Below are positions 2,212 to 5,695 of a stretch of DNA of 36,243 nt, piece after piece (position 1 is the first letter of the stretch; every line of letters starts with the position of its first letter). Source of the DNA: an uncultured Pelagibacteraceae bacterium (lineage in GTDB: Bacteria > Pseudomonadota > Alphaproteobacteria > Pelagibacterales > Pelagibacteraceae); the NCBI GenBank assembly GCA_902568425.1, contig CACFQM010000008.1:1-36243 (forward strand), in the 5' to 3' direction. The notes beneath the pieces were generated by a model. The model ran no database searches and was not told where the DNA came from. It saw only the letters and a list, made by a program, of their open reading frames with translations. The translations under genes were made by a program, and so were the position numbers.

Positions 2212-2256
2212 AATCAGGGGTTGAATTTAATTTTTAATTTGTTAAAAACACAAAAG

Positions 2257-2331
2257 ATGAAAAGACAAAAAATCACTACTAAATCACACTCACACTCTCA
2301 CAGAGTGCACGCTAAGCTATTGCTTAGCTAA
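2257..2331 (+). CDS. candidate histidine-rich leader peptide MKRQKITTKSHSHSHRVHAKLLLS (24 aa)
   Basis: ATG 2257 to TAA 2329-2331; four CAC codons in the stretch HSHSHRVH; lies upstream of tRNA-His-hisS-hisZ-hisG; overlaps two stem-loops. No obvious Shine-Dalgarno. Confidence 0.5.
   Translation: MKRQKITTKSHSHSHRVHAKLLLS
2293..2328 (+). promoter_or_regulatory. tandem stem-loops overlapping the candidate His leader (possible attenuator)
   Basis: CACTCT(2293-2298)/AGAGTG(2302-2307), 3-nt loop; GCTAAGC(2311-2317)/GCTTAGC(2322-2328), 4-nt loop. AGTG (2304-2307) can alternatively pair with CACT (2334-2337). Confidence 0.45.
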
Positions 2332-2386
2332 ATCACTACATATTTAAAATACAAATTTATAAACAATTAATATAAAAAGGAGTTAT

Positions 2387-2467: not shown

Positions 2468-3994
2468 ATGGTAAAAGACAAAAAAACCAAACCTTCAAAG
2501 GAATTACCTTTAGGTTTTGTTGATAGACAAGAAAAAGAATTACTTGTACGTGATTTTATAATTTCAAATATTAAAGAAGTTATGATCAAGTATGGTTTTC
2601 AATATCTCGAAACACCAAGTTTTGAGTATACGGATAGTATTGGAAAATTTTTACCAGATAAAGATAGACCAGACGAAGGTGTCTTTTCATTTAAAGATGA
2701 AAATAAATGGCTGTCTTTAAGATACGATCTTACAGCACCTCTAGCTAGGTATGTTGCAAAAAATTATTTAGAAATTCCAAAACCATTTAAAAGGTATCAA
2801 CTAGGGACTGTTTGGAGAAACGAAAAACCAGGACCAGGAAGATTCAAAGAATTTATTCAATTTGATGCAGATTATATTGGCACAAATAATTTATTAGCAG
2901 ATGCTGAGCTATGTATTTTAATGTCAGAAATTTTAAAAAAATGCGGATTATCAGAAAAAGATTTTAAAATAAAAATCTTTAACAGAAAAATTATGGATGA
3001 CTTACTGAATAATCTAGGTCTAGAAAAAAAATATAAAAAAGAAGATGAGCTTGAAAAAATAAAATTAAAAATTTTAAGATCGCTTGATAAAATAGATAGA
3101 CTAGGAGAACAAGAAGTGTTTAAACTTCTAGGAAAGGGCAGAAAAGACAAATCTGGTGACTTCACTGAAGGAGCGCAACTTAATGATAATCAAATTTCAA
3201 TAATTGAAAATTTTTTAAGTGATTTAAAAGTTGCCAGGAGCAAAACTTTAAAAGAGGCAGGTTTAACAGTGAAAGATGACCTTGAAGATGACTCTGCTGA
3301 AGCAGATATTTATAGAGAAGAAATAAAAGGAACTGATGAAGAAAATTATATTTATTTTGACTCTGTTTTTAATGATCGCAAAGGTATTCCAACTGAGGGA
3401 CTTAACGAGTTACAGCAGATCAAAGAAATATTTGGAAGAGCTGGTTTCAAGAATTATATAATTGATCCAACGGTTGTTAGAGGCCTCGAATATTATACAG
3501 GAATCGTATTTGAGGCTGAATTAACTTTCGATGTTAAGAATAATCAAGGTAAAATTATTCAATTTGGTTCTGTTGGTGGCGGAGGCAGATATGACAATTT
3601 AACAAAAAGATTTAACAAAAATTTGGATTTTCCTGCAACAGGTATATCTATTGGTGTTGATCGATTATCTTATGCGATTACGCAAAAAAGAAATTTTAAT
3701 TTAAAAGAGAGTAAACCTGTATTGATTTGTCTTTTTGAAGAATTTTTAATGAAAGATTATTTTGAAATTCAAAGAGAGTTAATAAAGAACGATATTCCTG
3801 TTGAGATATATTCTGGAGAAGGTGAACTAAAAACCCAACTAAAATATGCCAACAAAAGAGGTTCACCCATAGCTATTCTGGTTGGTGCAAATGAAAAAGG
3901 ACAAAATAAAGTTACTCTAAGAAATTTAAGTTCTGGAGAGGAAAAGAGTTTAAATATTAATGATTTAGCAAATGAAATCAAAAAAATTATCTGA
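2468..3994 (+). CDS. hisS: histidyl-tRNA synthetase
   Basis: Start placed at ATG 2468 because the upstream part of the ORF-track frame is tRNA. Class II motifs: FEYTDSIGKFLPDKDRPDEGVFSF, SLRYDLTAPLARYVA, RNEKPGPGRFKEFIQFDAD, GLEYYTGIVFEAEL, GGGGRYDNL. Confidence 0.93.
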   Translation: MVKDKKTKPSKELPLGFVDRQEKELLVRDFIISNIKEVMIKYGFQYLETPSFEYTDSIGKFLPDKDRPDEGVFSFKDENKWLSLRYDLTAPLARYVAKNYLEIPKPFKRYQLGTVWRNEKPGPGRFKEFIQFDADYIGTNNLLADAELCILMSEILKKCGLSEKDFKIKIFNRKIMDDLLNNLGLEKKYKKEDELEKIKLKILRSLDKIDRLGEQEVFKLLGKGRKDKSGDFTEGAQLNDNQISIIENFLSDLKVARSKTLKEAGLTVKDDLEDDSAEADIYREEIKGTDEENYIYFDSVFNDRKGIPTEGLNELQQIKEIFGRAGFKNYIIDPTVVRGLEYYTGIVFEAELTFDVKNNQGKIIQFGSVGGGGRYDNLTKRFNKNLDFPATGISIGVDRLSYAITQKRNFNLKESKPVLICLFEEFLMKDYFEIQRELIKNDIPVEIYSGEGELKTQLKYANKRGSPIAILVGANEKGQNKVTLRNLSSGEEKSLNINDLANEIKKII

Positions 3995-5021
3995 ACAAAT
4001 TATCAAGACTTTTAAAAGTAATGGTTTTGTTTTATCAGAACCAGACGTACTTTTAGATTCAGATTATATCATCGAAAGATCTGGGGAGAATTTTAGGAAG
4101 ATAATGCTTACTTTTGAGGATGATGCTGGAAAAAGCATGTGTTTAAGACCAGATTTGACAGTTGCATCGTGTATTAAATATTTAAAAGATAAATCAAAAG
4201 CAAACTCAAAGATATATTATTCAGGCCAAGCTTATAGAAGGTCGAAAAGTTTGAAAAAAGTCATTAATTATCAATTAGGTTTAGAGATTTTTGGCTCTAA
4301 GAATAAATCAACTGATGATTTAAAAGTTTTAAAAACAATAACTAGTTCAATTAATAAAATAAAAATTAAAAATATATCGATCAAAGTTGGCGATGTAAGT
4401 TTATTTAAGCAATTAATCGAGTCCTTAAAAATACCAGAAAGATGGAGAATGAGATTAAAAAGGCACTTTTGGCGACCAAAATATTTTGAAGATTTACTTA
4501 ATAGGCTTGAAACAAATTCTGACGTTGATCCTGCTATAGTGGAATTGGATAAGAAAAAGTTTTATGAAATGAAGAATATTGATCAAAACAAAGAAGTTGC
4601 CAGCCGAAAAGTTTCGGAAATCATATCTAGATTTGACAGAAAAATTAAAGACCCAAGATCATTTAAAGAAAATAAAAAAATTGTTAAAATTATCAAAGAT
4701 TTTTTAAAAATTAATTGTTCATTGGATAAACTTGATAAAACATTAAATAATTTTATTGATAAAAATCAACTGAGCAGGAGCGTTTTTAAAGACCTATCAA
4801 GTTTGAAAAATTTATCTAGATTAAATTCTAAAATTACTTTTTCTACTAATTTTGGTAGAGATATCGAGTACTATTCTGGAGTAGTATTTGAGATATACAG
4901 TTCATCAAACAAAGAGATAGCACGAGGTGGTAGGTACGATGGTTTGTTGAAAAATCTTGGATCTGATAAAAATATTTCAGCAGTAGGTGCTGCAATCAAT
5001 TTAAATAATTTAAAAATATGA
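3972..5021 (+). CDS. hisZ: ATP phosphoribosyltransferase regulatory subunit (HisZ)
   Basis: HisRS-like protein without the anticodon-binding domain (LRPDLTVASCIKYL, GQAYRRSK, GRDIEYYSGVVFEIY, GGRYDGLL); overlaps the hisS 3' end and precedes a short-form hisG. Confidence 0.88.
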   Translation: MKSKKLSEQIIKTFKSNGFVLSEPDVLLDSDYIIERSGENFRKIMLTFEDDAGKSMCLRPDLTVASCIKYLKDKSKANSKIYYSGQAYRRSKSLKKVINYQLGLEIFGSKNKSTDDLKVLKTITSSINKIKIKNISIKVGDVSLFKQLIESLKIPERWRMRLKRHFWRPKYFEDLLNRLETNSDVDPAIVELDKKKFYEMKNIDQNKEVASRKVSEIISRFDRKIKDPRSFKENKKIVKIIKDFLKINCSLDKLDKTLNNFIDKNQLSRSVFKDLSSLKNLSRLNSKITFSTNFGRDIEYYSGVVFEIYSSSNKEIARGGRYDGLLKNLGSDKNISAVGAAINLNNLKI

Positions 5022-5695
5022 AAAATTTGATAACTATAGGGTTACCAAGCAAAGGTAGATTGAAAGAGAGTTCGATAAACTTTTTTGATAAAAATAATTT
5101 AAAACTTACTACAAATGGTGGAGAGAGAAACTATTTTGCTGCAGTAAAAAATTTCCCCAATATTAAAATAATTTATTTACATGCAAAAGAAATTATCCAA
5201 AGAATTGGCGATGACACCCTTGATATTGGGATTTCAGGTTTAGATCTTTTAAATGAGTCAGCTGCAAACCTGAAACAAAAGATTGAAATTAAGAAAAAAC
5301 TAGACTTTGGTTTAGCAAATGTTGTGATTGCTATCCCAGATGATTGGATTGATGTACAAACCTTAGCTGATTTAGAGGAGGTTTCATTTGATTTTAGAGA
5401 TAAAAAAAATACAAGATTACGAGTTGCAACCAAATATCCTAATCTGACAAATACCTTTCTTGTTTCAAAAGGTATTACACAATACAAAATAGTTCCTAGT
5501 CTTGGTGCAACAGAGACCTATCCCTTTATTGGATCTTCAGAAATTATTACAGATATAACTTCTACAGGAAAAACTTTGAAAGATAATAATCTCAGAATTT
5601 TAAAAGACGGCTTAATTTTGAAATCTCAGGCTTGTCTATTTTACTCAAAAAAAAAGGCTGCGAAATTGCAGCCTTTTTTAAATTCCTTAAAGTGA
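5018..5695 (+). CDS. hisG: ATP phosphoribosyltransferase catalytic subunit (short form)
   Basis: 225 aa; GLPSKGRLKE, DIGISGLDLL, RVATKYPNLT, GATETYPFIGSSEIITDITSTGKTL. Confidence 0.94.
   Translation: MKNLITIGLPSKGRLKESSINFFDKNNLKLTTNGGERNYFAAVKNFPNIKIIYLHAKEIIQRIGDDTLDIGISGLDLLNESAANLKQKIEIKKKLDFGLANVVIAIPDDWIDVQTLADLEEVSFDFRDKKNTRLRVATKYPNLTNTFLVSKGITQYKIVPSLGATETYPFIGSSEIITDITSTGKTLKDNNLRILKDGLILKSQACLFYSKKKAAKLQPFLNSLK
5650..5679. terminator. intrinsic (probably bidirectional) terminator inside the hisG 3' coding end
   Basis: AAAAAAGGCTGC-gaaatt-GCAGCCTTTTTT: GC stem flanked by A-tract and T-tract, located before the hisG stop codon (5693-5695). Confidence 0.8.

Follow-up and report, generated by a model that had tools for sequence, protein, structure and literature searches.

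We propose that the segment 2221-2386 (+ strand) of the 36,243-nucleotide stretch of uncultured Pelagibacteraceae DNA analysed here (contig CACFQM010000008.1; the window) is the control region of a tRNA-His-hisS-hisZ-hisG operon. In our preferred reading, to which we assign a probability of roughly 0.78, a ribosome-mediated leader sensing histidine controls this operon, and a hairpin within it (stem 2) acts as a switch that responds to ribosome position. Very probably such a leader would let the cell tune the operon to its histidine supply. Comparative sequence analysis shows a leader ORF with His codons that is conserved across SAR11, its constant association with the operon, the stems and their spacing.

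Leader ORF, promoter-like site and operon

The leader ORF occupies 2257-2331 (+ strand), consists of 24 codons plus TAA and reads MKRQKITTKSHSHSHRVHAKLLLS. A check of the sequence placed its start ATG at 2257-2259 and its stop TAA at 2329-2331. Four His codons, at 2287, 2293, 2299 and 2308, are all CAC. The first-pass annotation, in which this region had been noted as a candidate histidine attenuation leader, was right to the base about the ORF and its CAC codons, both stems and the CACT at 2334-2337. Its emphasis on CAC fits the four codons of the window but does not carry over to relatives, whose 128 leaders contain 231 CAC and 211 CAT codons; in the long ORFs of the window, CAC makes up 41 of 128 His codons (about a third). 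The all-CAC usage is mild evidence for a leader. When short ATG ORFs were screened for at least four His in eight codons, this density was reached by 1 of 321 in the window and by 6 of 4,270 in 400 kb of a relative. Taken alone, the His density of the leader is only moderately unusual, and the ORF is judged to be real on the grounds of conservation, not of His density alone. With promoter and intergenic filters switched on, the His leader became the top candidate among residue runs in both the window and the 400 kb of the relative. Searches of the leader against Rfam and Pfam returned no match; the Rfam His_leader covariance model gave none at the gathering score or at E up to 5, and neither did the T-box family. 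A ten-base direct repeat, AAATCACTAC, occurs at 2270-2279 within the ORF and again at 2330-2339, spanning the leader stop codon.

A promoter-like site is found at 2221-2248 (+ strand), with TTGAAT at 2221-2226, a spacing of 16 nt, TG at 2240-2241 and TAAAAA at 2243-2248; TTTGTTAAAA in this region shows 99% identity within the genus. The pattern TTGnn-N15-18-TAnnnn, ending 2-16 nt before the ATG, is present in 117 of 121 distinct leaders and in 10.7% of mononucleotide shuffles, a contrast that is somewhat optimistic, the pattern having been defined after inspection of the sequences. The gap between promoter and ATG is usually 6-8 bases, and 13 in two genera. A general sigma-70 scan gave no site at the leader. 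The predicted transcription start falls at about 2254-2257, and we infer that transcription begins upstream of the leader ORF, at or just before its AUG. Shine-Dalgarno-like words precede the ATG in 5 of 128 leaders, and the leader mRNA is probably near-leaderless. In Sinorhizobium meliloti, the trpL RNA begins at the ATG of its leader ORF (PMC7298713); for the SAR11 leader, such a start is a prediction. Further upstream, behind the cold-shock gene, an 11-bp perfect inverted repeat (ATTGGGACAAA/TTTGTCCCAAT, 2174-2211) with no U-tract after it probably marks the 3' end of the cold-shock transcript.

The first gene behind the leader is tRNA-His (anticodon gtg; 2387-2463, + strand; ARAGORN and Rfam RF00005). 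It is followed on the same strand by hisS for histidyl-tRNA synthetase (2468-3994; TIGR00442, 343 bits, above cutoff), hisZ for the regulatory subunit of ATP phosphoribosyltransferase (3972-5021; assigned from its best NCBIfam match, NF008953, with E = 1.5e-89 but below the cutoff, together with Pfam PF13393 and position) and hisG for ATP phosphoribosyltransferase (5018-5695; TIGR00070, above cutoff). ARAGORN/Rfam, NCBIfam and Pfam thereby bore out the gene order read earlier from the letters. Among 80 named relatives, hisZ lies behind hisS in all 80 and hisG was found in 74. The hisS AUG is located 4 nt past the tRNA CCA in the window and about 4-7 nt past it in most relatives, so that, once the tRNA is processed, the hisS mRNA would be almost leaderless. 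The sequence AAGGAG (2378-2383) lies a short way ahead of tRNA-His; as a Shine-Dalgarno sequence for hisS acting across the folded tRNA it was rejected, being missing in genera g5, g9 and g12.

Two observations concern the genes themselves. The HisRS of the window appears mosaic-like: identity to HisRS of the same genus is about 90% over residues 1-150 and, in bins of 50 residues, about 40-70% over the remainder, where some 60 additional residues occur around 152-312. The neighbouring HisZ shows 82-90% identity, and recombination inside hisS of the window is likely. In genus g3, ARAGORN detected no tRNA-His at loci L118, L120, L124 and L128-L130, where a tRNA-like sequence with GTTTGTGG precedes hisS, pointing to unusual tRNA-His genes.

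Conservation of the leader among SAR11 genomes

DNA upstream of hisS was sampled from about 110 loci of 13 genera. Another 20 loci have a divergent hisS, with 19 belonging to a single genus and the last to a 14th, and a further 20 come from a second SAR11 family. Many of the assemblies behind these loci, from single cells or metagenomes, are incomplete. A DNA search recovered the leader in nearly all genomes of the same genus and, for other genera, stretches of it, and a short His ORF stands at the same position in 26 of 26 other same-genus loci. Across the 14 Pelagibacteraceae genera and the second family, nearly all of the roughly 150 loci carry a short ORF with 2-6 His codons, so that the conservation on which the first-pass annotation had made its claim depend was indeed found. 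L082 is truncated, and L116 yielded no ORF by the rule applied. The arrangement looked for in leader-peptide control, a short ORF rich in the cognate codon directly upstream of the histidine genes, is present at nearly all of the SAR11 loci examined.

The peptides themselves differ. Their endings (asterisk, stop) include HSHRVHAKLLLS, KHHFAHARLLLS, HRHHFHAGCKLAI and FKHHHYHI, and the forms encountered include HSHRVHA[KR]LLLS*, KHHFAHA[KR]LLLS*, HRHHFHAGCxLAI*, SHHLMHAKHMLG and THRHHPHAEHALS as well as GTHRHFHAG* and STHRxCFHSL*. In the second family the peptide, of 11 residues, is mostly M[FI]xxxHHHYHI*, and hisS follows directly behind the leader with no tRNA-His in between. The leaders of the divergent hisS loci (L114-L133, for the most part from genus g3) often exceed the others in length and have many Thr and Arg residues ahead of the His codons, an example being NRGTQRSTLRGTNRGTHRHFHAG in L118.

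Gaps within the aligned leader ORFs are triplets. Identity within the genus is 100% for the ATG, 72% for codons 2-10, 94% for the His/stem 1 part, 97% for stem 2 and 97-99% for the 58 bases between stop and tRNA, and falls to just 68% at 2248-2256; given this uneven profile, relatedness alone does not explain the conserved parts. The conserved start, frame and stop, together with the triplet gaps, suggest that the leader ORF is translated. A search of 20 other alphaproteobacteria with the same HisRS type yielded no convincing His leader; the idea of the same leader beyond SAR11 was dropped, and the His leader appears to be a SAR11 feature.

Stems, ribosome position and the block before tRNA-His

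The leader folds modestly better than its shuffles (z = -1.76). Stem 1 (P1; 2293-2307, + strand) pairs CACTCT at 2293-2298 with AGAGTG at 2302-2307 over His codons 2 and 3. In an alignment of the window's genus and g4, 94% of its cells are paired. Compensatory changes, proposed by the first-pass annotation as a check on both stems, were found in stem 1 as a C-G/U-A exchange that divides the sequences 11 to 11, but in stem 2 the base changes in alignments A2 and A3 are mostly one-sided. None of 500 shuffles, which keep no account of relatedness, attained the covariation score of the structure as a whole. Other genera show a different hairpin at the place of stem 1, with weaker statistics, and several have no evident stem 1.

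Stem 2 (P2; 2311-2328, + strand) is formed by GCTAAGC at 2311-2317 and GCTTAGC at 2322-2328 around a TATT loop; it begins directly after the last His codon, and its right arm ends just ahead of the TAA. No sequence of A2 or A3 lacks this pairing. With the changes in these alignments being mostly one-sided, the case for stem 2 rests on divergent loci, where other complementary arms take its place. Across SAR11 leaders a late His codon usually precedes stem 2 directly, and the stop codon ranges in position from the loop of the hairpin to a few bases past its end. The motif is present in one copy per genome in 8 of 8 genomes, always at the leader.

The window contains no intrinsic terminator (hairpin plus U-tract) on the + strand before the first gene, so that the leader departs from the classical hisL type. 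Behind stem 2, the window's genus has 2 T in 8 bases, in agreement with the earlier remark that no U-tract follows; some divergent loci have up to 6 T in 8. In families with more U after stem 2, a terminator at this position would reverse the logic of the switch.

Ribosome positions were modelled with a footprint extending from 17 bases before to 13 bases after the first A-site base. In 17 of 17 representatives, stem 2 stays folded with the ribosome at the first His codon and is melted with the ribosome at the stop codon, where no new conserved downstream hairpin appeared. Within this model, stem 2 fits the role of a marker of slow His decoding.

Across the SAR11 leaders, the stems have no conserved, mutually exclusive partner. 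The exclusive fold suggested earlier, between AGTG at 2304-2307 and CACT at 2334-2337, pairs fully in 23 of 27 same-genus leaders and, in the form AATG:CATT, in 7 leaders from a second genus. It fails in the remaining leaders and is not supported as a general mechanism. Two further candidates were set aside. A helix joining the bases around the start codon to those behind stem 2 has support in most genera; the window's own genus lacks it. Ten base pairs are possible between the loop region of stem 2 (AGCTATTGCT, 2315-2324) and the 5' end of tRNA-His (AGCAGTAGCT, 2389-2398), a complementarity found in five genera; it was taken as coincidence because the loop does not track changes in the tRNA (L037, L043, L044).

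Between the leader stop and tRNA-His lies an A+T-rich block (2329-2386, + strand) with 97-99% identity in the genus, which may be an internal promoter, a processing signal or part of the switch. The TTGnn-type promoter pattern was found before the tRNA in 0 of 73 distinct upstream regions; a relaxed TT[GT]-type promoter-like pattern was found in 46 of 73, against 17.7% of shuffles. The block is nearly identical among the window and loci L032, L033, L049 and L031, some of whose genera differ in peptide and stem 1, and the close relatives L037 and L088 bear other blocks, so block and tRNA may have been exchanged jointly. Since such blocks are common to genera with different peptides, part of the cross-genus identity downstream of stem 2 may be due to recombination.

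In the mechanism that we propose, RNA polymerase would start on the leader AUG or no more than a few bases from it, and ribosomes would load onto a near-leaderless message. When charged tRNA-His is scarce, decoding would slow at the His codons of the 24-codon peptide. A ribosome at the first of these codons would cover the stem 1 region and leave stem 2, just past its footprint, folded, and one that reaches the stop codon would melt stem 2. We infer that the state of stem 2 is passed on to the downstream transcript in the direction of a higher output under histidine shortage. The readout would occur ahead of the tRNA gene, through Rho, pausing or processing and not through a classical hairpin-U terminator; it is placed there because the tRNA sits between leader and hisS and will be excised. 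What counts against this reading is the lack of a terminator hairpin on the + strand and of an alternative hairpin with the ribosome at the stop, the absence of stem 1 from several genera, the mostly one-sided changes in stem 2 and the possible internal promoter before the tRNA.

Alternative explanations, related systems and significance

This last point leads to the alternative that tRNA-His and hisS are expressed mainly from a promoter of their own within 2329-2386, the leader RNA or peptide being a separate short product that possibly acts in trans and affects the operon only via read-through. The 58 bases before the tRNA match stem 2 in conservation and the relaxed promoter-like pattern is enriched there, as such a promoter would have it, and a trans role of leader RNA and peptide has been published for trpL of Sinorhizobium (rnTrpL/peTrpL; PMC7298713). 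However, none of the 73 regions has the leader's TTG-type promoter pattern before the tRNA, the second family has His leader and hisS with no tRNA-His between them, and the leader is tied to the operon in every genome tested. We consider this alternative unlikely, though it deserves more weight than either of the following two.

That the ORF is a chance His-rich frame, untranslated and lying in a conserved, structured 5' region, would agree with the six short ORFs of comparable His density in 400 kb and with the constraint that the stems place on the DNA. Start, frame, stop and His codons are nevertheless kept among leaders too divergent to align, and in two families, and the filtered scans of the window and of the 400 kb rank the His leader as the best residue-run candidate, which makes such an accident very improbable. 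Slightly less credible still is a small functional His-rich peptide, for instance a metal-binding one, whose site before hisS is incidental. Its C-terminal part is well conserved within groups of genera, as a functional peptide might be; against this, the early codons are free to vary (72% identity), length and sequence differ among genera down to the 11 residues of the second family, and what persists is the His codons, their distance to stem 2 and the constant location before hisS. The histidine-sensing leader remains our preferred reading.

Several known leader systems come close in logic to the SAR11 leader. In the enterobacterial hisL, histidine genes are preceded by a leader that can fold and that carries a short ORF with regulatory His codons (PMC9413887), an arrangement that the SAR11 leader shares. 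It differs from hisL in that its His codons are not in a single run, no intrinsic terminator is present, no Rfam match is obtained, the predicted start is near-leaderless and the first genes are tRNA-His and hisS. Among alphaproteobacteria, uORFC-8-2 is the cysS leader of Rhodobacterales, with two stems of which the first bears the regulatory codons (PMC8632094). In both systems the codons of the leader ORF match the synthetase gene behind it, Cys in uORFC-8-2 and His in SAR11, whereas the terminal U run of uORFC-8-2 fits an intrinsic terminator and its description includes no tRNA gene. In bacilli, leader peptides with a stretch of His codons precede hisS* and hisZ, and the same paper reports that Firmicutes and proteobacterial leaders are not similar in sequence (PMC2965389). 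Short His-codon ORFs before the same gene families are common to both, but the Firmicutes ones were found by their terminators. The S. meliloti rnTrpL/peTrpL system is likewise alphaproteobacterial; it has Trp codons, is terminator-based, and its RNA and peptide were shown to act in trans. In the non-subscription literature covered, we found no report of a SAR11 His leader and no system combining a near-leaderless start, the cognate tRNA as first gene and the lack of a terminator. A 2009 search for structured RNAs in Pelagibacter removed intergenic regions containing tRNAs from its list (PMC2704228), which may be why the leader was missed before.

The fullest version of our reading is more tentative than the control of the operon itself, and we hold it at slightly less than even odds. 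It states that a near-leaderless His leader jointly sets tRNA-His, HisRS and ATP phosphoribosyltransferase throughout SAR11, with stem 2 as a ribosome-position switch and no intrinsic terminator, and would put the gene for tRNA-His under the control of a sensor that itself reads this tRNA. SAR11 bacteria are among the most abundant in the ocean and have few known regulators. The missing terminator turns the readout step into a concrete, testable question, and, if the reading is true, tRNA supply, charging and synthesis could all be set in these organisms by one signal of histidine charging.
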